Source of the DNA: a virus
Strand: one strand, 5' to 3'
DNA length: 20,746 bases
IMG/VR virus record: IMGVR_UViG_3300025466_000213
Span: 1-20,746 of that record
In this document: positions 2 through 18,951 of the stretch, piece by piece
Layout of the letters: the number at the start of each line of letters is the position of its first letter
Position numbering within the stretch: the stretch's first letter is position 1
Program-made: the position numbers and the translations under genes
Notes under the pieces: generated by a model
Seen by the model: the letters and a program-made list of their open reading frames with translations, nothing else
The model's database searches: none
Told to the model about the DNA's origin: nothing

Positions 2-1156
2 ATGAACAGTCTAAGCCTGGGATCAGCTCTTAATGTTAATGTGTTTGGTATTGGTGCTGGTGGTACAGCAGGAGTAAATCAAGGATATTTAACTGTAGAT
101 CCTAACAATGGTTTTTGGAATATTGGCATGGGAACTGTATATGGTTATGGTCAATATGAGACCAATCTCTCTAACTTATCCAGTATAGGTAATAGTAACT
201 ATTGGAGTAGTCGAGAAAATGAAGTCGGATTACCTGACATATACATAAGTGTAGGTGGTAACGGTGATACCGAGTCTACATGGGTGTTTGCCGCACAATA
301 CGAGCCTACTGAACGACCTAGTACCCTAGTTATTCCCTACAATGGTGTTATTGGTATTCAAAATAATGACAGTGGTACTGATAATGTAATAACTGTCACT
401 TACTACAATGATCTTGCCAGTGAGCCAAATATTGCTATAGGTCCACAAGCAGGCGCTAATCCTACTGGCGGTAATATGATTGCTATAGGTTACGAAGCAG
501 GTAAGGCATATCAAAATAATTATGCTATTGCTCTTGGGGCCCGTGCTGGTAAGTTTGGACAAGGAGCAGGCGCTATTGCTATCGGTGCGTTTGCCGCAGG
601 TGCTTGGGGAACTAGTGGCACAGCACAATCAGCCAACAGTATTATTATCAACGCTACGGCTGATCATAGCCAACCACTATATGATGCTGGTGCTAACACA
701 CTAGTAATTAAACCTGTTAGAAGTTCTACAGGACCTGCGCATGTCTACTACGATTCAGCAAGTGGTGAAATCACATATAGCACAGTTAACTTAGGATCTA
801 AAACTACAGCACTGACTGGTACAGATAATTCTACTTCACCTGCGCCTGCTGATTGTACAGCGTTGGATTTAACCAAACAGATACAGTATTTGGACGCTGG
901 TAGCGGTACAAATCAGATATCTTTTTATCTTGCTGCCGGCACAGAAGGACAGATCATGTACTTTGTAGCCAAATCCAGCACTAACATGGCAAGTATTTTG
1001 ATTTACTGCTCTCATGTGCGTTATAGAAACGGATCCGCAATAGTAGCTTTAGGTGATGTATTTCCGTTTAGTAACCTTGTTACCGACGGGCGTACAATGG
1101 CAACAGCTATATTCATTGACGGAGCATGGAGCTTTGACGGTGGCGGCATAGATTAA
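2..1156 (+). CDS. Tail fibre / adhesin protein with YadA-head-like repeats (probably 5'-truncated)
   Basis: At least 384 residues. The first ATG lies one base from the window edge, so no upstream context is visible and the gene probably starts outside. Residues about 143-217 carry repeats of the IAIG / AIALG / AIAIG type alternating with AG-rich turns, the pattern of the left-handed beta-roll heads of trimeric YadA-like adhesins. Residues about 233-260 (VIKPVRSS...YYDSASGEITYS) resemble a linker often seen in aquatic phage fibres. The C-terminal ~95 residues form a beta-rich module (GQIMYFVAKSS...) similar in style to modules duplicated in the 6315-10397 gene, ending in a Gly-rich tail. Inferred role: trimeric virion fibre or adhesin contacting the host. 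The next gene follows 18 bases later, after an AAGGAT-type ribosome site. Coding call is strong; the specific fibre identity is not. Confidence 0.8.
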   Translation: MNSLSLGSALNVNVFGIGAGGTAGVNQGYLTVDPNNGFWNIGMGTVYGYGQYETNLSNLSSIGNSNYWSSRENEVGLPDIYISVGGNGDTESTWVFAAQYEPTERPSTLVIPYNGVIGIQNNDSGTDNVITVTYYNDLASEPNIAIGPQAGANPTGGNMIAIGYEAGKAYQNNYAIALGARAGKFGQGAGAIAIGAFAAGAWGTSGTAQSANSIIINATADHSQPLYDAGANTLVIKPVRSSTGPAHVYYDSASGEITYSTVNLGSKTTALTGTDNSTSPAPADCTALDLTKQIQYLDAGSGTNQISFYLAAGTEGQIMYFVAKSSTNMASILIYCSHVRYRNGSAIVALGDVFPFSNLVTDGRTMATAIFIDGAWSFDGGGID

Positions 1157-1174
1157 AATTAAGGATAAAGAAAA

Positions 1175-1708
1175 ATGGCAAATATAACAATCACAAACCC
1201 AGCTATTACTAGTACTACTGGAGTATTTTCCTGTACAGCATTAGCCGCTCCGCTAGCATTAGGGCAAGCAGTCAACATATCAGGTGTGTTTAGCAGTGGA
1301 GGTGTCGTAGGGCAAAAATCAAATGGTGTTTACTATGTGATAGGTACTCCGACTACTACAGCTTTTCAATTGAGTAAGACCAAAGGCGGTGCTCCAATTA
1401 CCACAGTGGTCAGCACAGGAGCAATTACTGGCGTCACTATTACCACAGTAGACGAAGCTACTGTGTATGTACAGAGAAATTGTAAAAACAGCGCCGATGC
1501 TGTTAAACTATTAAGAGCTAATGGTGTAAGAGTACACGCAGTTATGGTAACTGGTTCAAGCAAGAATAGAAAAGCTATGGCAGCGGCTACTAGTAATGCT
1601 AGGACTACTCCACAAGTGTTCATTAATGGAGCACATGTTGGCACACTGACTCAACTAAAATCTAGTTCACTAATCAATCCTAACGCTAAACTAAAAGCTA
1701 GAACTTAA
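1175..1708 (+). CDS. Small beta-module tail-type protein with C-terminal glutaredoxin-like domain
   Basis: 177 residues. Residues about 2-92 are Thr/Val/Gly-rich beta sequence (LALGQAVNISGV... NGVYYVIGTPTTTAFQLSKT) matching modules inside the protease and the 1360-residue fibre of this window. Residues about 96-163 look like a glutaredoxin fold: strand VYVQRN, then C103-K-N-S106 where glutaredoxins have CPYC or, in monothiol types, CxxS; a helix (ADAVKLLRANGV); a second strand and helix; then TTPQVFINGAHVG (144-156), very close to the cis-proline T-V-P-Q-hydrophobic-F-I-N-G-x-H-I-G motif of the family. The usual GG-C/S-DD glutathione contact that follows is lost (GTLTQL). The tail is basic. 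It sits between a fibre gene and the protease with 18- and 14-base gaps, so it is probably co-transcribed and virion-associated. The thiol activity is inferred only; the domain may be purely structural. Confidence 0.8.
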   Translation: MANITITNPAITSTTGVFSCTALAAPLALGQAVNISGVFSSGGVVGQKSNGVYYVIGTPTTTAFQLSKTKGGAPITTVVSTGAITGVTITTVDEATVYVQRNCKNSADAVKLLRANGVRVHAVMVTGSSKNRKAMAAATSNARTTPQVFINGAHVGTLTQLKSSSLINPNAKLKART

Positions 1709-1722
1709 TCCGGAACAAGACC

Positions 1723-4700
1723 ATGCGTTCAATAAAAAAGACTTGGTCCAAGATTACAACAAAAAGTGCTCCACAACACACAGACGGACAAGAATATGTT
1801 GTTTGTTTGAAAAAAGGAGAGAACTATGATCAGGTCTGGACAGAAATAGAAACAGAAACTACTGGCTTGGATACAATACCTAACCGAGCCGCTAGGATCC
1901 TTAATGCTCGTCCGGGTAGTCCACGCAGTTGTCACTATTCTTTGACCCCAGCTGAAGCAGAACAACTAAGATTGGATCCTCGTGTACATAGTGTAGAAGT
2001 TCCTCCACAGTACAAAGGTATCCGTGCTGTTCACAAGACTACTCAGTTCAACAATTTTACCAAACCCACAAGTCTCACAGACAGCACTGGCGACCTAGTC
2101 AACTGGGGCTTACCTAGAATGAATGCCAGCTACAATAACTATGGCACAGGCGCTACATTGCTACCAGGTGGTACTGGTGGCTATGACTATACTTTAACTG
2201 GCCAAGGTGTAGATGTAGTTATACAAGACAGTGGACTACAGATAGACCACCCAGAGTTTGCTGGCCGCGTACAGGCTATAAATTGGTATGAGCATACTGG
2301 ATTTTCAAATTACAGCAGTATTGACAGTATAGGTCTGCCTGGAACTGCTTACTTGGCACTAAACCCAGGCGCAGTGGCATCGACTTATGTACATGATCGT
2401 AACAGTCTATACTTCAATGGACATGATTGGCTACAGTTTGCCAGTGAAGCTATCAATTTTGGTTCTGGTGATTTTACAATTGAATTCTTTTTTAAGATAG
2501 ACACAGATGTCAATCTCGACACTACTCAGATGGGATTTGTCGACTATGGTGCTAATGGGTCACTAGCTATGTACATGGGCACCGCACCAGGTACAGCCAG
2601 CAGTCATGTTTTCACCGTTGAACTAAAAGGCACTGATTCACAGTCATTTGACTTTGTCTATCCTATAAGCAAAGGTGTATGGCATCATTTGGCTGTTACT
2701 AGAGAGATCGGTTATTTGAATGTGTATTTGGATGGCAACGGTGCTGGTAATCACCCTAATACTTGGAATTTTATATATCTTTCACAAGGGTTTGGTACCT
2801 ATGGCGGAGTTTACAATTTCAAAGGTCATTTGGCTAATCTACGAGTATCTGTTGGTTCAGCAATATACGCATCTGTAGTAGGATCAATTACTGTACCTAC
2901 AGCACCTTTATCGATAACATCAGGAGTTGTATTATTATTAAATTGTTTAGATGCCAATACTCCTTATCATAACTCTGTGTATATTAGCTATTCGTTAGTC
3001 AACGCAAATAATGACAGCACATCAGTTGTTACATTTAGTTCGGGAACGGGCACACCTGAATTTACTATAGAGTTTTGGTTTAATCTAGCTACTGATCCTG
3101 CTAGTCACAGACATGCTTTTTTAGGAAGTGCTAACGATCGTGCTCTCAGCGTATACACCGGAGATGTTATAAGTGGTGGTACCGGGCCAGCAAACAATAA
3201 AATTGGTGTGGACATTTATACAGAGGGCGGCGTAACATTTACATTTGCCACAGCAATGACCACAGGCACCTGGTATCATTGTGCTGTGGTTCGAGACGCT
3301 AGTTGTAATCTACAGATATTCTTGAATGGCATTGCGGCCACAGGATGGAGTACTAATATTAGTGGAGTAAGTCCTACATCAGGTTCAGGACATTACTCAA
3401 ACTTTAATTTCACAGTCAACGGTGCTATTGACCAAGTGGGCAATTGGGATTCTTATAGTACATTTGATGGTGCTATTACAGATGTGAGAATAGTACAAGG
3501 TACAAATCTATATGACCCTACTGCTAATAATATTGCTGTACCTACTACTATGTTAACTGCTGTATCAGGTACTGAATTTTTATTAAATCTCACTTATTAT
3601 TCGGAATATACTGGACCGATAGATGCTACAACAAATAGTAGTGTTACTATCGAAGGTACTGGTGCTGAATTAATCGCAGGCCCTACTACAGTATTTTATC
3701 AGAACTTCCAACCTGCCGAACACTACATGGACACAGTGGGTCATGGAACACATGTGGCTGGTATTGCCGCAGGTACTACATATGGTTGGGCAAAGAATGC
3801 CTATGTATATTCGGTTAAAGTAGCAGGGCTAGAAGGTCCGCAAGATCCAGGAACAGGTATACAGTTTCCTGACTGTTTTGAAGTTATACAATTATTCCAT
3901 TCACAGAAAACTCCTAGAGTCAACGGCTATGTAAAACCCACGGTGGTCAACATGAGTTGGGGATATGAAGGTAATTATGTCAGCGATATATCCCCATTAA
4001 CTAATGTAACAATTATAGGAACTTCGGGAGAATTTGGGTGTGATGTACCCGGGATAACATTGGCTATAGGCATGGCGGTGTGTGTACAAGGTACAGTAGC
4101 TTACAGTGGACTCGGCGGCTATACCGCTAATACAGACAATTACTATATTATTACAGCTCTTCGTCCGGGTACTCCTACCAGCTATACATTAGTTACAAAT
4201 CAAATTTATGATATTGGCCAAAGTGCTAATCAGTATCTTTCTTATACAGTAACTAGAACAGATTATCCTGCTATCGTAGCTATAATTGGAGCTTACACAG
4301 GTTCCAGTTATTATTACCCTAACCCCGGAGAATTTACTATTACGGCTCCAGGAGTAACTGGAACTAGAACAGTTCTATATTGTGGATATGATATTCCTGG
4401 AAATCTTTTCTTTGAGTTTCATTACGAAGCTGGACAAGATGATCCTACTAGTATAGCAAGTGGAACTTCATTTACTGTAACCCATACTCCTACTAATGGT
4501 AACAATGGATTTACACTACAAGCGGCAACTGCGCTGGGAGAAGCTAGTGGTACAGCAATAACCACTGTGGAAGGTACTCCAAGTCAACTGTCATTTACTG
4601 TGATTGTGACTAATATCACAGGCGGGCATTATCGAGGCACACCCTGGACTGGGACTTTTCCTCAAACCAATTATGGCATGGGTCCAAACGATGTGCTGTA

Positions 4701-5346
4701 CTACAACAGTTTCCCTGTGAGAGATCCTAGCACCGATGTAGCTCTTGAAGATTTAATTGATGCTGGAGTTATTGTTAGCATAGCGGCAGGCAATGATTTT
4801 ATCAAGATTGATAACTCTGGTGGCCCAGACTACCTAAACTCATATACCGATGGTACTTACACCTATTACTATAATCAAGGATCTAGTCCTTATAGTGTAC
4901 ATGCTAATATTGTAGGTAGTATAGATGTCACACCATACGATGTTAATAGAGACCAAAAAGCCGAATACAGCAACAGTGGTCCAGGTGTAAACATATTTGC
5001 TCCAGGCACTGGTATATTGAGCTGTACTAGCAATAATCCAGCAGGCATTTATGAAGAAGGATACACTCCAGCACCGTACTTCTTGGATAGTGCGTTCAAT
5101 CAACTTAATTTAAGTGGGACTAGTATGGCTAGCCCACAGATTACAGGCTTGTCAGCATTGTTAGCAGAGATGAATCCGCAGGCCACTCCCTCACAGATTC
5201 TTACTCAACTACAAAATATGGCTAGAAACAATCTGTATACTACTAATTCAGCTAATGATTATAGTGTGTTTAACAGCCTTTGGGGTGCAAGTCCTAAGTT
5301 AGTCTACAATCAGTTTAATAATACTGTCAGCGCATACTTTGGTTAA
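1723..5346 (+). CDS. Subtilisin-like (S8) serine protease with two LamG-like domains inserted in the catalytic domain
   Basis: 1207 residues. Residues about 22-97 resemble an I9-type inhibitor propeptide (EYVVCLK...LTPAEAEQL...DPRVHSVE). The catalytic set is complete: Asp169 (VVIQDSGLQIDHPEF), His674 (GHGTHVAGIAAG), oxyanion Asn1024 (SIAAGND) and Ser1134 (LSGTSMASPQ). In ordinary subtilases Asp and His are about 30 residues apart; here the gap is about 505. It holds two related LamG/concanavalin-like domains, about 222-390 and 434-600, with matching cores (FTIEFFF / FTIEFWF; GVWHHLAVTR / GTWYHCAVVR; YLDGN / FLNG). A second insertion (about 750-985) follows VNMSWG and contains a module like the N-terminus of the preceding gene. 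No signal peptide or membrane segment is evident, so release with the virion or by lysis is likely. Inferred role: tail-associated protease binding and cutting surface polymers, or maturing fibres. The ribosome site (CGGAAC) is weak, suggesting coupling to the upstream gene. Confidence 0.9.
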   Translation: MRSIKKTWSKITTKSAPQHTDGQEYVVCLKKGENYDQVWTEIETETTGLDTIPNRAARILNARPGSPRSCHYSLTPAEAEQLRLDPRVHSVEVPPQYKGIRAVHKTTQFNNFTKPTSLTDSTGDLVNWGLPRMNASYNNYGTGATLLPGGTGGYDYTLTGQGVDVVIQDSGLQIDHPEFAGRVQAINWYEHTGFSNYSSIDSIGLPGTAYLALNPGAVASTYVHDRNSLYFNGHDWLQFASEAINFGSGDFTIEFFFKIDTDVNLDTTQMGFVDYGANGSLAMYMGTAPGTASSHVFTVELKGTDSQSFDFVYPISKGVWHHLAVTREIGYLNVYLDGNGAGNHPNTWNFIYLSQGFGTYGGVYNFKGHLANLRVSVGSAIYASVVGSITVPTAPLSITSGVVLLLNCLDANTPYHNSVYISYSLVNANNDSTSVVTFSSGTGTPEFTIEFWFNLATDPASHRHAFLGSANDRALSVYTGDVISGGTGPANNKIGVDIYTEGGVTFTFATAMTTGTWYHCAVVRDASCNLQIFLNGIAATGWSTNISGVSPTSGSGHYSNFNFTVNGAIDQVGNWDSYSTFDGAITDVRIVQGTNLYDPTANNIAVPTTMLTAVSGTEFLLNLTYYSEYTGPIDATTNSSVTIEGTGAELIAGPTTVFYQNFQPAEHYMDTVGHGTHVAGIAAGTTYGWAKNAYVYSVKVAGLEGPQDPGTGIQFPDCFEVIQLFHSQKTPRVNGYVKPTVVNMSWGYEGNYVSDISPLTNVTIIGTSGEFGCDVPGITLAIGMAVCVQGTVAYSGLGGYTANTDNYYIITALRPGTPTSYTLVTNQIYDIGQSANQYLSYTVTRTDYPAIVAIIGAYTGSSYYYPNPGEFTITAPGVTGTRTVLYCGYDIPGNLFFEFHYEAGQDDPTSIASGTSFTVTHTPTNGNNGFTLQAATALGEASGTAITTVEGTPSQLSFTVIVTNITGGHYRGTPWTGTFPQTNYGMGPNDVLYYNSFPVRDPSTDVALEDLIDAGVIVSIAAGNDFIKIDNSGGPDYLNSYTDGTYTYYYNQGSSPYSVHANIVGSIDVTPYDVNRDQKAEYSNSGPGVNIFAPGTGILSCTSNNPAGIYEEGYTPAPYFLDSAFNQLNLSGTSMASPQITGLSALLAEMNPQATPSQILTQLQNMARNNLYTTNSANDYSVFNSLWGASPKLVYNQFNNTVSAYFG

Positions 5347-5354
5347 CCAAATCG

Positions 5355-5405: not shown

Positions 5406-6302
5406 ATGGCAGCATTACAATTCCCGTTAAACCCTACCGTAAATCAAGTTTTTGTTGGTTCTAACGGTATTAACTACACGTGGGACGGTATCAAATGGGT
5501 TGGTCAAGGCCAGCTTGGTGCTCCTCCACAACCCCCGCAATTTGTCTTACCCCCAGCAACTATCAATCAGTTGGGTGGTATCGAAATTGGTTCTGGATTA
5601 TCTGTTGACAATGCTGGAGTATTATCAGCACAACAAGCTACAGTTTCTGATAATCCCCCTAGTAATCCTATAGCAGGTGCACTTTGGTTTAATACCCTAG
5701 TTAATACCTTATTCATTTATCAAAATCAAGGATGGGAATCGGCAGCTGGGGGTGATTTACTTAACGTAGCCTCTGATATACTTCCTGCCACTGATCTTAC
5801 ATATAACTTAGGCAGCCCAACAAGGCAGTGGAAGGATGTTTATGTGGGTCCAGGGTCTGTTTATGTTGGTGGAATAAAACTTAGTAATGTTAGTGGAAAT
5901 CTAACTGTAACTAATGCTTTGGGTATTACACTTCCACAAAATGTAACCTATACAAATGCTTCCGGCAGTGTAATTCCCTTAAACAGCGAATTAGCTACAA
6001 CTACCAATCCGGGTATTGTAGAAATTGGGTCAAATATTGATGTAATTAACGGCGTTATCAGTGTACCTACTGCTACAAACAACAGTTTAGGAGTAGTAAA
6101 AGCTGGTACAAATGTGTCTATTGACAGCACTGGCGCAGTAAGCGTTCCTACAGGGGCTGGAATAAATACACTAGAGACTATTGCTAATGTGAATCCTACG
6201 GGAATAACCAACGGATCGCTGTTAGTTTATAATCAAGCAGCTAGTAGATGGGATGTAACAGTTAACTTAACACAAGAAAACTGGGATTCAGGGCAATATT
6301 AA
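5406..6302 (+). CDS. Fibre-like structural protein with repeated LGxxxxGxxLSVDxxGVLS motifs
   Basis: 298 residues. The N-terminus (FPLNPTVNQVFVGSNG..YTWDGIKWV) is typical of phage tail-fibre-type proteins, followed by a Pro-rich hinge at about 38-51 (LGAPPQPPQFVLPP). A motif of the form LGGIEIGSGLSVDNAGVLS occurs at about 56-74 and recurs in variant form at about 202-219 and 228-246. Residues about 84-110 (PPSNPIAGALWFNT...LFIYQNQGW) and 134-160 (NLGSPTRQWKDVYVG..SVYVGGIKL) match short modules common in aquatic phage fibres. It starts just after a late promoter, with GAGAG as a possible ribosome site, and ends 12 bases before the 1360-residue fibre gene. Likely a short fibre or a connector for the larger fibres; its exact structural place is unknown. 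Confidence 0.85.
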   Translation: MAALQFPLNPTVNQVFVGSNGINYTWDGIKWVGQGQLGAPPQPPQFVLPPATINQLGGIEIGSGLSVDNAGVLSAQQATVSDNPPSNPIAGALWFNTLVNTLFIYQNQGWESAAGGDLLNVASDILPATDLTYNLGSPTRQWKDVYVGPGSVYVGGIKLSNVSGNLTVTNALGITLPQNVTYTNASGSVIPLNSELATTTNPGIVEIGSNIDVINGVISVPTATNNSLGVVKAGTNVSIDSTGAVSVPTGAGINTLETIANVNPTGITNGSLLVYNQAASRWDVTVNLTQENWDSGQY

Positions 6303-6314
6303 CGGAGCGCATAG

Positions 6315-9300
6315 ATGGCAACCACATTTAGAATTAAACGATCGCCGACCACGGGTAATCCCGCGGTACTGGCACAAGGTGAATTAGCCTATTCATACTT
6401 AACCAACAACGGCTCCAACGGTGGTGACACGCTGTATATTGGTACAGGTACTGAAACAACAGGTAATGCGGCGAATCACGTTAAGATCGGTGGTCTCTAC
6501 TATACAACACAGATTGATAATGCTACTAACTTAAACACAGCTAGCACTATTGTTAAACGCGATGGCAGTGGTAATTTTGTAGCTGGTACTATCACAGCGG
6601 CCTTAACTGGTAATGCCTCAACAGCAACCACATGGCAAACAGCACGTAACTTATCTCTAACAGGTGATGCAACTGCTACTCTAAGTAGTGTTAATGGTAG
6701 TGTTGATGTATCAGCAGCCTTAACCTTAGCCAACGTAAACTCAAACGTTAACAGTCTAGCAATAACAGCCGCAAGTGGTAATGGTACAACTGTAACATTA
6801 ACTTATGCTACACAAGCCAGCAATCCCTATACCATTGGTCAACAGGTTACAGTCACTGGTGTAAGCCCAAGTGGTTATAATGGAACATATACAGTAACAG
6901 GTGTTTCAACAACGCAAGTACAATATGCTAGTTCATTTACAACAAGCTATGTAAGCGGTGGTACTGTAATTGGCCTATTTGGTAGTGCTACATTTATTCC
7001 TGTAATTACAGTTAATGCTAAAGGACTGATTACCTCAATTAGTAATACATCAATCAGCACAACATTGAATCTTGCTGGTTCAACTGGCACTGGTTCTGTT
7101 GCTGGTGGTGGAACATTAACTGTTACTGGCGGTGCTGGTATATCTACTACTGTTAGTGGATCAACAATTACAATTAACTCTACTGGTGCTGGCGGTTATA
7201 CTACCACAGCAACTAGCGGAACAACATATACAATTACATCTACAAGTACTCCTGCACAATACTTTACAGGAAGTACACCTCAGACAGTAGCACTACCAAG
7301 TACAAGTGGACTAACACTTGGTCAAGAATATATTTTAACAAACAATAGTACAGCTAACTTGTCTGTACAAACAAGTACTGCGGCTGCTGTTCTAACTCAG
7401 ATTCCAGGTACAACAGTTAGTTATACTATAATATCGACAAGCGGCAACACTGCGGCTGCTTGGAACTATGAATACACCGGTTTTGCTGGCATTACTGGAA
7501 CAGGTAACGCTGTACTAGCTAATGCTCCAACATTAACAGGTCATCCAACGATTGAAGGTGTTACTTCAACAGGTGCAACTGGTACTGGTAACTTAGTATT
7601 CAGTGCAAGTCCTACATTTACAGGTACACTGACTGCTGCTACTGCTAGCTTTAGTGGTCACTTAACAGTTGAAGGAGTTACTTCAACAGGTGCCACTGGT
7701 ACTGGTAAGTTTGTATTTGATAATGCTCCTACAATCAGCGGACATCCAACAATTGAGGGAGTTACTTCAACTGGTGCCACTGGTACAGGCAAGTTTGTAT
7801 TTGACACTAGTCCAACTATCAGTGCTCCTACAATCAGTGGTCACCCAACAATTGAAGGTGTTACTTCAACTGGTGCTACTGGTACTGGCAATTTAGTATT
7901 CAGTGCAAGTCCTACATTTACAGGTACACTGACAGCTGCTACTATTAGTGCAACAACACTATCAGTTAGTAACATCAATGATGGTTATACAACTACAGCT
8001 ACAGCCGCTGGAACTACAACACTAACAAGCTCCAGTAACTATCAACAATACTTTACTGGTTCAACAACCCAAACAGTTGTACTACCGGTTGTAAGCACAC
8101 TAGTTTTAGGCGCTCAGTATCAGATTGTAAACACCAGTACAGGTAACGTAACTGTACAAAGTAGTGGTGCTAATACTATTCTAGCAGTATTACCAGGCAC
8201 TGCGGCATTCTTTACAGTAATAGCTGTTACAGGTACAGGTGCAAGTTCTTGGTATGCTGCCTACGATGCATTTGCTACCGTTACTGGCACTGGTGCTAAT
8301 GTTCTAGCCACTGCTCCAACGTTCACAACTAGTATTGACGGTAGTTCAGGATCGTTTACAGCATTCGCAACCCCAACAACATTAACAGTTGGTGGTGCAA
8401 GTACTAATACTACCATTGGCGCAACTACAGGTACAACTACCTTAAACAGTCCAACAATAGTTGGTCAGGCTACGACACAAAACGTATTCAATACTGTAGC
8501 AACAACAGTTAATGCGTTTGGTGCTGCTACTACAATCGGTATTGCTAGTGGTGCAGCCAGTGCTACTACAATAACACTTGGTGCTAATACTAACAATAAT
8601 ACTTTAAGTATTTACGGTAATGGCACAGGCGGAACAGCAACATTAACCTCTAACGTTACTACAGGTACTATCAACGTATTCACAGGTGGCCAGCTGATCA
8701 GTATCGGTGCTAGTTCAGGAACTACAACAGTTAACAATACATTAACTACAACAAGTCCAAACATCACCACCAGCATTACAACTCCAACTACTGGAACATT
8801 TAGTCTAGTTAATACTACTGCTACACAGGTTAACTTTGCTGGTGCAGCCACTACAGTAAACGTTGGTGCTAGTACAGGTACATTAACTCTTAATAATCCT
8901 ACTATTGCTACTAGTGTAACAAGTGGTACACTGGCCTTATTCAATACAGGCCTAACAGGGACATTAAACTTAGCAGGTGCTGCTGGTTCAATCAATATTG
9001 GTTCTAGCACAAGCACTACAACCTTTAACGGTAATGCTAACGTAGCAACTGGTAAAGGCTATCAGATTAATGGTACTACAGTATTAAGTGGTACAACACT
9101 AGGCAGTACAATAACTAGTTCTAGTTTAACTAGCGTTGGTACGATTACTAGCGGTACTTGGAATGGCACTACCATTGGCGTAGGCTATGGCGGTACTGGA
9201 ACTACGACTGGCAGCATAACAGGCACCGGCGCACTAACATTTACAGCTGGTGGATCTAATACAAACGTTAATCTAGTTCCGCAAGGTTCAGGAACTGTTG

Positions 9301-10397
9301 ACGTTGGCTCAGCAAGAATTACAAGTCTAGCAACTCCAACACAATCAACTGATGCGGCTACTAAAGGATATGTTGATGCGGCAGCTACTGGTATCAATGT
9401 ACACGACAGCGTAGAAGTATTAGCTGATAGCACAAATACAGCTATCACAGGTGCTACTTATGCTAATGGTACTGCTGATGCTGGTACTGGTACTGGTATA
9501 GGCGCAACACTTACTGACGCTACAACAGGTTCATTACTATCAATTGACGGCTACACACTAGTATTAAATGATCGCGTTTTAGTTAATGCTTTCACAAGTA
9601 CTAGCGCAAAATACAACGGTGTTTACTATCTAAGCACATTAGGTGTAAGTGGTACAACAAAATGGGTCTTGACTCGTGCTACAGATTATAACAATAGTGT
9701 TGCTGGACAAGTTATTCCTGGCGACTTTGCGTTTGTTACCAAAGGTACAACATACGGCAAAACCGGTTGGGTACAAACTAATATTGGTACAGGAGCAAGT
9801 CCAGCCAACGCTATTAAGATTGGTACAGATGCCATTGCTTATACACAGTTCAGCGGATCTGGAACTTATCTAGCTGGTAATGGTATTGCTTTATCTGGAA
9901 GCACATTCTCAATTGATACTACTGTAACAGTTGATAAGACAACAAGCCAAACACTAACTAACAAAACACTAAGCACAGGTACAGTTTATAACGGTGGTGT
10001 AATTGGTGCTACTTATGGTGGTACTGGAGTTAATAACGGTTCAAGCACGATTACTATCGGCGGAAACGTTACAATGTCTGGTGCGTTTACCTTTACTGGT
10101 ACAGTAACAGGTAACACCAGCGTAACATTCCCAACTAGTGGTACACTTGTTAATACAGCGGTTACAAGTTTAAGCAGCTTGTCAACAGTTGGTACGATTA
10201 CTAGTGGTACATGGAATGGTACAACTATTGCTAGCGGCTATGGCGGAACAGGATTCAGCACATACGCTGCTGGTGATTTAATCTACGCCAGTGCAACTAA
10301 TACCCTAAGCAAGTTATCAGCAGCTACTAACGGGCAAGTTCTACAGCTTGTAAGTGGTGTACCTGCGTGGGGCGACTTAGACGGCGGAACCTATTAA
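6315..10397 (+). CDS. Giant repetitive tail fibre-like protein (1360 residues)
   Basis: Extremely Thr/Gly/Ser-rich, almost no Cys. Residues about 1-60 (FRIKRSPTTGNPAVLAQGELAY...DTLYIGTG) form a conserved N-terminal block also seen in the 10469-14416 gene, probably the virion attachment end. Residues about 148-220 hold the GQQVTVTGVSPSGYNGTYTV module. A module starting GYTTTAT is present twice (about 294-405 and 557-668). Between them are four copies of a GHPTIEGVTSTGATGTG motif. Later come NFAGAATTVNVGASTGT repeats, SVGTITSGTWNGTTI..GYGGTG repeats, and a domain at about 1013-1185 (DAATKGYVDAAATGINVHDSVEVL...NGVYYLSTLG). No intramolecular chaperone (S74) domain is seen at the C-terminus. GGAG stands 7 bases before the ATG. 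Inferred role: host-recognition fibre, expressed with the preceding gene. Confidence 0.88.
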   Translation: MATTFRIKRSPTTGNPAVLAQGELAYSYLTNNGSNGGDTLYIGTGTETTGNAANHVKIGGLYYTTQIDNATNLNTASTIVKRDGSGNFVAGTITAALTGNASTATTWQTARNLSLTGDATATLSSVNGSVDVSAALTLANVNSNVNSLAITAASGNGTTVTLTYATQASNPYTIGQQVTVTGVSPSGYNGTYTVTGVSTTQVQYASSFTTSYVSGGTVIGLFGSATFIPVITVNAKGLITSISNTSISTTLNLAGSTGTGSVAGGGTLTVTGGAGISTTVSGSTITINSTGAGGYTTTATSGTTYTITSTSTPAQYFTGSTPQTVALPSTSGLTLGQEYILTNNSTANLSVQTSTAAAVLTQIPGTTVSYTIISTSGNTAAAWNYEYTGFAGITGTGNAVLANAPTLTGHPTIEGVTSTGATGTGNLVFSASPTFTGTLTAATASFSGHLTVEGVTSTGATGTGKFVFDNAPTISGHPTIEGVTSTGATGTGKFVFDTSPTISAPTISGHPTIEGVTSTGATGTGNLVFSASPTFTGTLTAATISATTLSVSNINDGYTTTATAAGTTTLTSSSNYQQYFTGSTTQTVVLPVVSTLVLGAQYQIVNTSTGNVTVQSSGANTILAVLPGTAAFFTVIAVTGTGASSWYAAYDAFATVTGTGANVLATAPTFTTSIDGSSGSFTAFATPTTLTVGGASTNTTIGATTGTTTLNSPTIVGQATTQNVFNTVATTVNAFGAATTIGIASGAASATTITLGANTNNNTLSIYGNGTGGTATLTSNVTTGTINVFTGGQLISIGASSGTTTVNNTLTTTSPNITTSITTPTTGTFSLVNTTATQVNFAGAATTVNVGASTGTLTLNNPTIATSVTSGTLALFNTGLTGTLNLAGAAGSINIGSSTSTTTFNGNANVATGKGYQINGTTVLSGTTLGSTITSSSLTSVGTITSGTWNGTTIGVGYGGTGTTTGSITGTGALTFTAGGSNTNVNLVPQGSGTVDVGSARITSLATPTQSTDAATKGYVDAAATGINVHDSVEVLADSTNTAITGATYANGTADAGTGTGIGATLTDATTGSLLSIDGYTLVLNDRVLVNAFTSTSAKYNGVYYLSTLGVSGTTKWVLTRATDYNNSVAGQVIPGDFAFVTKGTTYGKTGWVQTNIGTGASPANAIKIGTDAIAYTQFSGSGTYLAGNGIALSGSTFSIDTTVTVDKTTSQTLTNKTLSTGTVYNGGVIGATYGGTGVNNGSSTITIGGNVTMSGAFTFTGTVTGNTSVTFPTSGTLVNTAVTSLSSLSTVGTITSGTWNGTTIASGYGGTGFSTYAAGDLIYASATNTLSKLSAATNGQVLQLVSGVPAWGDLDGGTY
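7194..8320 (+). repeat. Duplicated ~112-residue fibre module (two copies, 789 bases apart)
   Basis: Copy 1 begins at 7194 and copy 2 at 7983. Both start GYTTTAT, share QYFTGST.QTV.LP, a LG.(E/Q)Y.I.N.ST.N..VQ(T/S)S core and a closing VTGTG/ITGTG plus (V/A)LA.APT. Divergence at protein level shows an old duplication. Confidence 0.75.
7539..7943 (+). repeat. Four-copy coding repeat GHPTIEGVTSTGATGTG
   Basis: Copies begin at 7539, 7656, 7740 and 7839, all in frame. The first and last are the most alike and extend for about 105 bases, through LVFSASPTFTGTLTAAT, exactly 300 bases apart. The middle two have KFVFD in place of NLVFS. This looks like in-frame expansion by unequal recombination inside the fibre gene. 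Confidence 0.85.
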
Positions 10398-10400
10398 AGA

Positions 10401-10407
10401 ATAAATA
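10401..10407 (+). promoter_or_regulatory. T4-type late promoter element ATAAATA
   Basis: It lies four bases after the stop of the 1360-residue fibre gene and 61 bases before the ATG of the next one. Its right end forms part of the left arm of an inverted repeat (10404-10434). Confidence 0.6.
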
Positions 10408-10434
10408 CAATATCAGTATATACTGGTATGTATT
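10404..10434. repeat. Long inverted repeat / hairpin in the gap between the two giant fibre genes
   Basis: The core CAGTATATACTG (10414-10425) is a perfect 12-base palindrome. Pairing continues outward with one G-U pair, one bulged A and a further six pairs to 10404 and 10434. It overlaps the late promoter. It could form a cruciform or hairpin or be a protein site; there is no T-run, so a terminator is less likely. Confidence 0.55.
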
Positions 10435-10468
10435 CCTCGCTTTATAGCGGATTTAACTAGGGCGCCAA

Positions 10469-13400
10469 ATGGCACAACAAACAGCGATTAAGATTCGACG
10501 TAGCTCGGTTGCGAGCAAAATTCCGCTAACAACGGACCTAGTACTAGGCGAGTTAGCTCTTAATACGTACGATGGTATACTGTATTTTAAGAAATCGCCC
10601 GGCGGTGTAGATTCAATTGTTACTAGTGTTACACTAGATGCTACACAAACCCTTACTAATAAAACCCTAACATCACCTACTATTAATAGTGGTGCCCTAT
10701 CAGGTACATTCTCAGGTAATACTACCCTATCTGGTGTTATTACTCTATCTAACACTACTGATGCAACTAATACTACAACTGCCGGCACTATAGTATCCGG
10801 CGGTCTTGCTGTTGCTAAGACCATTTACACTGATCAAATCCGTGTTATGAATAATGGCAACGGCACTAACATTTATGTTGGTGACGATGCAATAATTGGT
10901 GACGTCAACGCTGCTAATACTTTTAGTGTTAGAGGACAGGAAGATCCTACCCAAGGTTATATTATCTTTGGTAATGCTAATAATAGTGCGTACATTGGAC
11001 GTAGCGGATCAAACCCAATTACTGTATCTGGCGGTCAATTAACTGTCACAGGAACTGCTACTGGTAGCAGTGCCGTAGCTCTACAACTTAATGGCTATAC
11101 TAACAAAGGTGGAACAGGCTATCACGATTTCCTAAGCGTTACAAACGCATATGGATCTGCTACTAATCCAAATAAGTTTTTCCGTTTAAACAGTAGCGGT
11201 AACTTAGAGATTATTAATAGTGCATATAGTTCTAATATTTTCTCCCTTACTGATGCTGGAGAATTAAGTGTTCCAGCGTTTAGTCTAGCAGGCACATTTA
11301 AAGATAGCACAGGCAGTGTAGGTACTAATAATCAGATATTATCTAGTACCGGTACTGGTGTTAAATGGGTTACTAGTAGTGCCGGATCATCTGGCACAGT
11401 TACTAGCGTAAGTGTTGTAAGTGCCAACGGCTTTGCAGGTACTGTAGCAAACAGCACAACTACTCCTGCTATTACCCTTACTACTAGTATCACTGGCCTA
11501 CTCAAAGGCAATGGCACTAGTATATCGGCAGCTACAGCAGGTACAGATTATCTAACACCAACAGGTTCTGGATCAGGGCTAACCTTTGCATCAGGACTTA
11601 GTGTATCTAGTGGTACAATTAATTTAACCAATACTACTACTAGCAATCAAATTAACTTTGGCTCTGCTGGTGTAGCTACACCAACTACTACTAGTTATAG
11701 TGTTGGTACTAAACTTGTTCTATACGATAATATTAGTTCTACCAATACTGGTATGGGCTTTGGTATTGAAACTGGCTATTTATGGAGTGTTGTTAACCCT
11801 GCAAATGGTTTCAAATGGTATTCTGGTACAACTAACATATTAAAATTAGACAGTAACGGAGCAGTAACGCTTACTGGCGCAATTAATAAAGTCACAATTA
11901 CAGCACCAGCAACTGGGTCAACATTAACCATCGCTGATGGTAAGACTCTAACTGCAAGTAATACTCTAACATTTACTGGTACTGACGGGTCGAGTGTAGC
12001 ATTTGGCACTGGTGGCACTGTTCTGTATTCTAGTGGAGCATTAGGTACACCTAGTAGTGCTACATTAACTAATGCTACTGGATTACCGTTAACTACTGGT
12101 GTTACAGGAGTTCTTTCTCCTGCCAATGGCGGTACTGGTATTGCAAATAACGCAGCAAGTACATTAACTATTAGTGGTAATTTTGGTACAACACTCACTG
12201 TATCAGGTACTACAAGTTTAACACTACCTACAAGCGGTACAGTCACAGCGTTAGGTAACACTGTAACTGGTAGTGGTAGTATTGTATTAGCAACTAGCCC
12301 GACCCTAGTAACACCAACGCTGGGTGTTGCTTCTGCTACTTCAATTAATAAAGTCACAATTACAGCACCAACAACTGGTTCAACATTAACCATTGCCGAT
12401 GGTAAGACCCTAACTGTAGGTAACACTCTAACATTTACTGGTACTGATACATCAAGCGTAGCATTTGGCGCTGGCGGTACAGTATTATACACAACCAGTA
12501 CACTCACTGCTGGCAACTTATCTGGTACAATACCCAGCTCGGTATTAGGCAATTCAACAGTCTATATTGGAACTACGGCCGTAGCCCTGAACAGATCTAG
12601 TGCTAATCTAGCCCTAACTGGTATAAGTTCAGTAGCACTTGCTGGAAGTACTAGCGGAACGTCAACTCTACAGGCACAGGCCACTGCTGGTACAACTACA
12701 TTTACACTGCCGACTACAACAGGCACACTAATTGGTACAGGCGATAGCGCAACAGTTACTAATACAATGTTGGTTAATCCTAGTTTCTACATTGGAACAA
12801 CTAGTGTATCATTAGGAGCAACTAGCGGTAGTATTACAAGCCTAGCTGTAAACATTTCAGGTACTGCTGCCAACTTATCAGGTACACAAACTGCAAATTA
12901 TGTATATGCAGCGCCAAATGGTTCTAATGGTGCTGCTAGTTTCCGTGCTCTAGTAGCCAGTGATATACCTCCAATATCAAACGTTGCTGGTGGCACTACC
13001 GGTGCAATACACTATCAAAGCGGTGCTAATGTTACTGCGTTCTTATCAGGTAACACAACAACTACTCCGCAGTTTGTAACATCAACAGGTACTGGCTCAG
13101 CCGCACAAGCACCTACACTAACTGGTTCAACAGGTAGTGGTAGTGTAGTATTAGCAACTAGCCCGACCCTAGTTACCCCTGCATTGGGTGTAGCCAATGC
13201 AACTAGTGTAACTACTAGTGCTGGTCTAGTTTCAACTGGATTATTTACTGGCACATATACTGATGGTATTATCCTAGACTATGATTCAGCTAATAGTAAT
13301 GCTCGTATTAGTGCAGGCGCCGGAGATGGATTTACATTCTATAATAGTGCGAATACTACACGAGTATCGTTGTTAACAGTAAGTAGTGCAGGTGCTGTGA

Positions 13401-14416
13401 CACTGACTAGTGATCTATTTGGTCAAGCAACACAAAATGTATTTAATACTGTAAGTACAACAGTAAACTTTGCCGGAGCTGCAACCACTGTTAGCATAGG
13501 TGCAAGTACTGGTACAACCACTGTTAATAATAATTTAACGGCAACTGGTACAGTTGCTGCCAATGGTGCAAGTGGTATTACTACTACACAGACTACATTT
13601 CCATTAGTTAACACTACAGCAACAACTGTTAACTTTGCCGGGGCAGCTACCGCAGTTAATATTGGCGCAAGTACTGGTACAACTACTGTTAATAATAATT
13701 TAACAGTAACGGGTAATCTTGATGTTAAAGGCACTACTACATTTGTTGAATCAACTACTGTACAGGTCTCTGATAAAAATATTGAAATAGGTAAAGTAGC
13801 AACACCTACAGACACAACCGCTGATGGCGGTGGTATTACACTGCTTGGATCAACTAATAAAACTATTACTTGGGACAGTGCTAACAATAATTGGACGTCA
13901 AGTGAAAACTGGAATATTGCTTCAGGTAAGACATTCAAAATTAACAACGTATCGGTTCTTAGTTCAACAACATTAGGATCCGGAGTTACTGGATCAAGTT
14001 TAACCAGTGTTGGAACTATCACTAGCGGTACTTGGAACGGCACTGTTGTTAGTCCAACTTATGGCGGTACTGGAGTCAACAACGGTTCTAGCACTATTAC
14101 CGTTGGCGGTAATGTAACCTACTCAGGTGCATATACACAGACATTTACCGCTACTGGAAATACTAGTGTAACGTTACCAACGAGTGGTACATTGTCTACA
14201 CTTGCGGGCGCAGAAACCTTAAGCAACAAAACACTGTCATCTGTAGTGCTTACAGGCACTGTTACTGCAAATGGTTCTACAGGTACTGCCGGCTATGTGC
14301 TATCATCTACAGGTACTGGTGTACAATGGGTAGCTCAAAGTAGTGGTGGCTCAGCTAGTTTTAGCCCAACTGCTGGCAGTTTTGATTATTGGGTAGCGTC
14401 CCTAATCATGGGATAA
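10469..14416 (+). CDS. Giant repetitive tail fibre-like protein (1315 residues), partial paralogue of the preceding one
   Basis: The N-terminus (AIKIRRSSVASKIPLTTDLVLGELALNTYDGILYFK) is the same block as in the 6315-10397 gene and is a common start of phage fibre proteins. The body is Thr/Gly/Ser-rich with internal repeats: INKVTITAP.TGSTLTIADG (from 11881 and again from 12343), GSGS(I/V)VLATSPTLVTP.LGVA (12271 and 13137), and NFAGAAT.V.IGASTGTTTVNNNL (twice, about 13460-13700). The C-terminal part shares SSLTSVGTITSGTWNGT and YGGTGVNNGSSTIT.GGNVT with the other fibre. The last residues (DYWVASLIMG) are distinct. No recognisable ribosome-binding consensus precedes the ATG beyond GGGCG. Inferred role: second large fibre or fibre segment. 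It ends 7 bases before the metallopeptidase-like gene. Confidence 0.88.
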   Translation: MAQQTAIKIRRSSVASKIPLTTDLVLGELALNTYDGILYFKKSPGGVDSIVTSVTLDATQTLTNKTLTSPTINSGALSGTFSGNTTLSGVITLSNTTDATNTTTAGTIVSGGLAVAKTIYTDQIRVMNNGNGTNIYVGDDAIIGDVNAANTFSVRGQEDPTQGYIIFGNANNSAYIGRSGSNPITVSGGQLTVTGTATGSSAVALQLNGYTNKGGTGYHDFLSVTNAYGSATNPNKFFRLNSSGNLEIINSAYSSNIFSLTDAGELSVPAFSLAGTFKDSTGSVGTNNQILSSTGTGVKWVTSSAGSSGTVTSVSVVSANGFAGTVANSTTTPAITLTTSITGLLKGNGTSISAATAGTDYLTPTGSGSGLTFASGLSVSSGTINLTNTTTSNQINFGSAGVATPTTTSYSVGTKLVLYDNISSTNTGMGFGIETGYLWSVVNPANGFKWYSGTTNILKLDSNGAVTLTGAINKVTITAPATGSTLTIADGKTLTASNTLTFTGTDGSSVAFGTGGTVLYSSGALGTPSSATLTNATGLPLTTGVTGVLSPANGGTGIANNAASTLTISGNFGTTLTVSGTTSLTLPTSGTVTALGNTVTGSGSIVLATSPTLVTPTLGVASATSINKVTITAPTTGSTLTIADGKTLTVGNTLTFTGTDTSSVAFGAGGTVLYTTSTLTAGNLSGTIPSSVLGNSTVYIGTTAVALNRSSANLALTGISSVALAGSTSGTSTLQAQATAGTTTFTLPTTTGTLIGTGDSATVTNTMLVNPSFYIGTTSVSLGATSGSITSLAVNISGTAANLSGTQTANYVYAAPNGSNGAASFRALVASDIPPISNVAGGTTGAIHYQSGANVTAFLSGNTTTTPQFVTSTGTGSAAQAPTLTGSTGSGSVVLATSPTLVTPALGVANATSVTTSAGLVSTGLFTGTYTDGIILDYDSANSNARISAGAGDGFTFYNSANTTRVSLLTVSSAGAVTLTSDLFGQATQNVFNTVSTTVNFAGAATTVSIGASTGTTTVNNNLTATGTVAANGASGITTTQTTFPLVNTTATTVNFAGAATAVNIGASTGTTTVNNNLTVTGNLDVKGTTTFVESTTVQVSDKNIEIGKVATPTDTTADGGGITLLGSTNKTITWDSANNNWTSSENWNIASGKTFKINNVSVLSSTTLGSGVTGSSLTSVGTITSGTWNGTVVSPTYGGTGVNNGSSTITVGGNVTYSGAYTQTFTATGNTSVTLPTSGTLSTLAGAETLSNKTLSSVVLTGTVTANGSTGTAGYVLSSTGTGVQWVAQSSGGSASFSPTAGSFDYWVASLIMG
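11881..12490 (+). repeat. Pair of 148-base coding repeats, 462 bases apart
   Basis: Copies at 11881-12028 and 12343-12490 align without gaps and with few differences, mostly at third codon positions. They encode INKVTITAP(A/T)TGSTLTIADG and the following LTFTGTD.SSVAFG.GGTVLY segment of the 1315-residue fibre. Confidence 0.85.
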
Positions 14417-14423
14417 GTACTGT

Positions 14424-14834
14424 ATGAAGATTAGAGAAATACTCACAGAAGGTTTGGACAAAAAGGATACGTTTGCTATCCTACACGACTTTATAAAATT
14501 CGCTGCCGAAGATCTACAGTTAAAAGATCTGCCAAAATTTGAATTTGATTTCGACTCTAAGAAAAGTGTAGAGCATAGAAGTTTTGGAGGTTATTCACCT
14601 GGTGCGCAACATATCCGCATTACTGTCAAAAATAGGCACATCAATGATGTGTGCCGTACACTAGCCCATGAGTTGGTACACTACAGTCAAGATCTAAAGA
14701 AAGAGCTAGAAGATGATAATGCAGGAGCAACGGGCAGTCCACAAGAAAATGAAGCCAATGCCCGTGCCGCAGTTATCATGCGCAACTGGGGCAAACAACA
14801 TCCGGAATTTTTTGAAAAAGAAAGTATAGCCTAA
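14424..14834 (+). CDS. Small HExxH metallopeptidase-like protein
   Basis: 136 residues. Residues 79-89 (TLAHELVHYSQ) carry the zincin motif H82-E83-x-x-H86, and a later QENEANARA stretch (107-115, E108 or E110) could supply the third zinc ligand, as in gluzincin-type peptidases. SPQENEANARAAVIMR matches the consensus of small metallopeptidase-like proteins known from T4-like aquatic phages. The protein begins MKIREILTEG, a type of N-terminus shared with several other genes here, including an L-x-E site at residues 7-9. It lacks a signal peptide. It follows the last fibre gene by 7 bases and probably reads through from its late promoter, ending at a strong terminator. Substrate unknown; roles in virion maturation or after entry are both possible. 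Peptidase activity is inferred from the motif. Confidence 0.85.
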   Translation: MKIREILTEGLDKKDTFAILHDFIKFAAEDLQLKDLPKFEFDFDSKKSVEHRSFGGYSPGAQHIRITVKNRHINDVCRTLAHELVHYSQDLKKELEDDNAGATGSPQENEANARAAVIMRNWGKQHPEFFEKESIA

Positions 14835-18249: not shown

Positions 18250-18951
18250 ATGCAAGTTCAAGAACTATCAATAGATCCTAATCCGCATCACCATCATCTT
18301 AATCCCGTTATATGGGACCAAGACGAGATGCACACAGAAGTACGTCGTAAGCTACTGCAAATAGCCGAACATTTTATCGACTATATCAACGTACCTAACT
18401 TAAATTTAAAAGACATTACCCTAAGCGGCAGTTCGGCCGGTTATAATTACAGTGACTACAGTGATATAGATCTACATCTCATAGTAAAAGGTGTCAGCAA
18501 AGAAGATGAAGAACTGTTTTCAGCCAAAAAGAATCAATACAATAACATCTACGATTTAACCATTAAAGGTATCCCTGTAGAATTGTATGTTCAACCTGCA
18601 GATCAACCACATGTTAGTGCCGGTATTTTCAGTGTCATGCGTAATCGATGGATTAATAAACCTGAACATAAAGAACCTACTACTAGCCCAAAAGATATTA
18701 AAAATAAAGCTAGAAGTTATGCCGGCAAGATAAATCATGCACTGCGCGGCGGAGATCTAGCAAAAAGTAAAGCAGTTATGGATGAACTTAAACGACTTAG
18801 ACAGGCTGGCCTGGCCAAAGGTGGTGAACAAAGCGTAGAAAACCTAGCTTTTAAACTGCTCAGAGCTAGGGGACAAATTGACAAATTGCGTAAATATATA
18901 GATAAATTAACTAGTGCTGAATTAAGCCTTGGGGAACAAGATGAAAATTAA
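18250..18951 (+). CDS. Nucleotidyltransferase-fold protein (DNA polymerase beta superfamily)
   Basis: 233 residues. Residues 58-78 hold the hallmark LSGSSAGYNYSDYSDIDLHL, with G60-S61 and D72-x-D74, the metal-binding pair of the Pol-beta-type nucleotidyltransferases. A downstream strand (VELYVQ, E111) could be the third acidic ligand. The N-terminus has a run of four His (13-16). The C-terminal ~80 residues are helical and basic (SYAGKINHALRGGDLAKSKAVMDELKRL). Relatives occur in T4-like aquatic phages without a known substrate; tRNA, protein or small-molecule nucleotidylation are all possible. It begins MQVQELS, similar to neighbouring MKIRE-type starts, and overlaps the next gene by 11 bases. 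Fold assignment is good; the reaction is unproven. Confidence 0.88.
   Translation: MQVQELSIDPNPHHHHLNPVIWDQDEMHTEVRRKLLQIAEHFIDYINVPNLNLKDITLSGSSAGYNYSDYSDIDLHLIVKGVSKEDEELFSAKKNQYNNIYDLTIKGIPVELYVQPADQPHVSAGIFSVMRNRWINKPEHKEPTTSPKDIKNKARSYAGKINHALRGGDLAKSKAVMDELKRLRQAGLAKGGEQSVENLAFKLLRARGQIDKLRKYIDKLTSAELSLGEQDEN

Follow-up and report, generated by a model that had tools for sequence, protein, structure and literature searches.

The stretch of DNA analyzed here, referred to as the window, comprises the 20,746 nt of IMGVR_UViG_3300025466_000213, a record from an uncultured tailed phage that is probably a fragment. On its plus strand, an open reading frame (ORF) at 1175–1708 encodes a fusion protein of 177 amino acids, in which an N-terminal beta module (residues 1–92; 1175–1450) is joined to a C-terminal glutaredoxin (Grx) domain (residues 96–163; 1460–1663). 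After a gap of 14 nt, and on the same strand, lies the gene for an S8 subtilase of 1207 amino acids (1723–5346), recognized by Pfam and by its catalytic motifs. The plus-strand ORF upstream (2–1156) had no family match. Downstream, the plus-strand genes at 5406–14416 match a tail fiber family (phrog_27381) and a virion structural family (phrog_6002), in agreement with the earlier note, which had placed the fusion gene in a fiber block. No ribonucleotide reductase (RNR) or other nucleotide-synthesis gene was recognized among the window's ORFs.

The Grx domain is genuine and not a chance resemblance. Pfam PF00462 (Glutaredoxin) matched residues 96–155 over profile positions 2–60 of 60, at a score of 44.5 bits (cut-off 22.9; E = 1.7e-11). 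The NCBIfam model TIGR02181 (glutaredoxin 3) also matched (E = 1.4e-12), yet under its equivalog cut-off, and phmmer against the PDB gave Synechocystis Grx A as the nearest solved structures by sequence (E = 2.4e-6). With only the two known copies of the fusion as input, AlphaFold reached a pLDDT of 41. When 29 phage Grx domains from viral loci were added to these copies, residues 91–170 were predicted as a block at pLDDT 78–97 (approximately 90 in the Grx half), in the strand-helix-strand-helix-strand-strand-helix order expected for a Grx; the N-terminal module in the same model was of low confidence. A Foldseek search of the PDB returned 24 matches at E ≤ 0.001, all of them glutaredoxins or Grx-domain proteins, with glutaredoxins on top, and the named matches in BFVD were mostly phage glutaredoxins. 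The highest-ranking viral match was UniProt A0A6J5KP53, a protein of 229 amino acids annotated as a glutaredoxin in an uncultured Caudovirales phage; were its additional ~140 residues to form a tail module, the fusion would extend beyond two contigs. Also among the structure matches was a 263-amino-acid Grx of Colwellia phage 9A, which, judging from gene length, appears to adjoin RNR genes. While the AlphaFold model was aided by the Grx rows in its alignment, the Pfam match is independent of them, so the domain call stands by itself. The earlier note had proposed this domain from the sequence and had named structure prediction and profile searches as checks; a thioredoxin/glutaredoxin fold and a Grx match were both obtained.

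The active-site region departs from that of a classical dithiol glutaredoxin. The motifs that had drawn attention to the gene lie exactly where they were reported: CKNS (C103–S106; 1481–1492) takes the place of the CxxC active site, which is absent, and the cis-proline loop region TTPQVFINGAHVG (residues 144–156; 1604–1642) begins 41 residues after Cys103. The classical TxP motif is present within it as T144-T-P146-Q. At the glutathione-binding Lys and the GG-x-D/E region, the protein has Q100 and GTLTQ. The loss of a GG-[CS]-DD motif described earlier is real, but Q and GT occur in ordinary phage Grxs too. We had considered this loss as proof of lost glutathione binding and dropped it, because ordinary phage Grxs vary at that site.

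Comparison with known systems helps to place the domain. Dithiol glutaredoxins of the GrxC or Grx A type (PF00462), including stand-alone phage Grxs, share its fold and nucleophilic Cys at 23–33% identity, as well as the cis-Pro loop TxPQ-[VI]-F-[IL]-[ND]-G-x-H-[IV]-G. The window protein differs from them in having CKNS rather than CxxC, a fused tail-type module, a long branch, and a gene located away from nucleotide metabolism genes. The CGFS monothiol glutaredoxins (Grx4/Grx5, TIGR00365) likewise combine a Grx fold with one active-site Cys. However, the label “monothiol glutaredoxin” does not hold in its strict sense (CGFS, Fe-S type), given CKNS and a TIGR00365 score of 20.5 bits, below the cut-off of 117.1. 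Stand-alone CPYS phage Grxs (L094–L109 except L098 and L100) resemble the window Grx in their single active-site Cys with Ser in second position and in the spacing from Cys to cis-Pro. Unlike it, they are approximately 75 amino acids long, lack the N-terminal module, keep P-Y and GG, and fall in the tree with a Grx-NrdB-type row. Finally, there are phage Grx-NrdB fusions (L070, L150, and comparable ORFs approximately 400 amino acids long) in which a Grx is also joined to another phage protein, but there the Grx is N-terminal, retains CxxC, and has the ribonucleotide reductase small chain as its partner.

The architecture is rare among the viral sequences scanned. An alignment-guided scan of viral contigs yielded 79 further Grx loci, mostly stand-alone proteins of 73–94 amino acids. 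All 79 keep CxxC and none carries the N-terminal module. Six are longer, at approximately 400 amino acids, and have an N-terminal Grx; two ORFs of this kind that were tested, L070 and L150, were the Grx-NrdB fusions mentioned above. A second viral scan added only ordinary Grxs, and a scan of genome contigs only two bacterial ones. A search for the CxxS pattern at the window's spacing recovered the stand-alone CPYS family in 14 contigs and the second copy of the fusion; scans using the alternative spacing or serine codons of the TCN type, which relied on exact patterns and were not exhaustive, found nothing. Because the CPYS family exists, CxxS by itself is not new in phages. The Grx fusion within a tail block is new within the collections scanned, and literature searches found no tail-linked phage Grx. 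That such a fusion is unusual, as first suggested from the sequence, is borne out by the phage search, which gave one other contig. In the tree, the terminal branch leading to the window Grx measures 3.02, compared with a median of 0.35, and the domain has no well-supported neighbor; this branch length fits a changed constraint.

The neighboring protease has a copy of the N-terminal module. Residues 6–61 of the fusion align with subtilase residues 759–820 at 37% identity (blastp E = 1e-5), and phmmer in the opposite direction, against a set of 3301 ORFs drawn from the window and the other loci, recovered the match at 1.8e-4. The protease copy spans residues 757–848 (3991–4266, plus strand), between the catalytic H674 and S1134, and C20 of the fusion aligns with C773, the one of the ten protease cysteines that lies inside the module. 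The earlier note had extended the shared module to the fiber genes as well, and this part did not hold up: the fiber gene at 6315 gave a weak blastp match (E = 0.005) that phmmer did not reproduce. Used alone as a query, the module had no phage tblastn match, no Pfam match, and no convincing PHROG match. The subtilase also contains LamG-like sequence between the catalytic D169 and H674, within an insertion of approximately 500 residues. Its nearest named relatives are mostly from cyanophages, and in the two cyanophage records examined the subtilase gene directly follows baseplate wedge or tail pin genes. Together with the tail-fiber and virion structural PHROGs downstream, this supports a tail setting. 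The fusion protein thus shares a module with a tail-locus protein and is encoded among tail genes, the two features that we looked for in a tail or virion protein.

One further IMG/VR viral contig (L001) carries this fusion, with a 97% identical protein beside the same protease. The shared two-gene block starts at the stop codon of the upstream ORF and ends shortly after that of the protease (1156–5350, plus strand) and is 97.6% identical to L011:230–4424 (IMGVR_UViG_3300000439_000256). Other matching parts of the two contigs are only 73–78% identical. The genes upstream do not align, including the ORF at 2–1156 and the L001 gene in the same place, and the two large fiber genes that follow the protease in the window are absent from that position in L001/L011. 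Consequently, the Grx gene and the protease gene appear to have been exchanged together. Within the block, divergence climbs toward both ends, which suggests a recent homologous exchange. In the second contig (L011:4420–5835, compared with 5406–14416 of the window), the protease is followed directly by a homologue of the small metalloprotease-like gene at 14424, and then by a 2OG-Fe(II) oxygenase gene on the other strand that has no counterpart at that place in the window.

Selection acts on the fusion gene. Its two known copies differ at 24 nucleotides, all in codons 1–90 and none in codons 91–177; the module DNA differs by 9%, and the window-versus-L001 comparison gives a dS of 0.32 for the module but of 0 for the Grx part. 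Synonymous changes dominate, with dN/dS at 0.09 for the gene in the same comparison. The fusion gene is thus translated and constrained by purifying selection, although this value speaks for the gene and not for Cys103, since the Grx DNA is identical in both copies. We had considered the identical Grx stretch of 335 nt as a sign of special selection and rejected this, because a longer identical run (3254–3839) lies in the protease; the Grx stretch is read as recombination.

We consider the best explanation to be that a captured and reworked Grx domain serves a tail-locus protein as a scaffold or for single-thiol binding, rather than as a glutathione enzyme, with a probability of roughly 0.45. 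The domain would have descended from a dithiol glutaredoxin of the ordinary phage or bacterial kind, and would have become fused to a small beta module that recurs in at least one more protein of the block. With its resolving cysteine gone, substitutions close to the active site, and strong divergence, the domain would most likely have become a folded binding or decoration domain that exposes one thiol, Cys103, and a role as a glutathione-dependent reductase in nucleotide metabolism would be less likely for it. The module would most likely let the protein dock onto the tail, or else onto the neighboring subtilase that carries the same module. From the tail setting and the shared module, we infer that the fusion protein is probably in the virion; docking by the module is probable as well, and the Grx domain may have lost its enzymatic activity. 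Retention of the Grx gene and the protease together while their neighbors differ supports this explanation. Two observations count against a scaffold: Cys103 and the cis-proline are kept, as a catalyst would need, and stand-alone CPYS phage Grxs that look enzyme-like exist.

CxxS glutaredoxins can still act by a monothiol mechanism. The protein could accordingly be a virion-borne single-thiol oxidoreductase, whose Cys103 would form mixed disulfides with host surface or envelope proteins, or deglutathionylate them, at adsorption or entry. The retained Cys103, cis-Pro146, and fold, and the position in the tail block, are consistent with this, and redox proteins packaged in virions have a precedent in a eukaryotic virus group (PMC9282662). 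We nevertheless regard such an enzyme as fairly unlikely: the resolving Cys is gone, Lys and Asn occupy the active-site loop, GG has become GT, the branch is very long, and outside cells there is no obvious reductant. A partner closer at hand would be the subtilase itself, whose cysteines the fusion protein might shuffle or block as a folding helper, with the shared module as the contact. The genes lie 14 nt apart and are kept as a pair, and the module cysteine of the ten-cysteine protease is the one aligned with C20. However, disulfides are not favored in the bacterial cytosol, and cyanophage subtilases in a similar locus have no annotated adjoining Grx gene, which makes a folding helper distinctly unlikely.

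Improbable to a similar degree is an ordinary intracellular glutaredoxin, serving RNR or stress, that was extended at its N-terminus and came to lie in a tail block by chance. Its best sequence relatives are indeed stand-alone phage and bacterial Grxs, some of which adjoin RNR genes, but the place in the tail block, the module shared with the protease, CxxS, and the lack of a recognized RNR among the window's ORFs all argue against it. An ORF made chimeric by assembly might be suspected from the presence of the fusion in only two contigs. We consider this extremely improbable, given the same junction and frame in both despite unrelated upstream genes, the 9% difference in module DNA, and the excess of synonymous changes.

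Phage glutaredoxins are regarded as enzymes of nucleotide metabolism, separate proteins that serve the making of DNA building blocks. The fold at this locus may therefore have a new use, possibly on the virion. If so, a Grx fold that entered a tail block and moves along with a protease bearing the same module would represent the recruitment of an enzyme domain into the virion or the apparatus for host contact; with one active-site Cys and one module, it offers a compact test case for redox chemistry in phage tails. In a more speculative form, to which we give low odds even beside the alternatives above (other than an assembly artifact), a tail-borne single-thiol Grx paired with the protease of the same module would trap or cut disulfide- or glutathione-linked host surface proteins at attachment.

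Elsewhere in the window, the gene at 18250–18951 encodes a nucleotidyltransferase-like protein (phrog_36119) that is also found in cyanophages, Maribacter phages, and Prevotella Lak phages, at approximately 33–38% identity.
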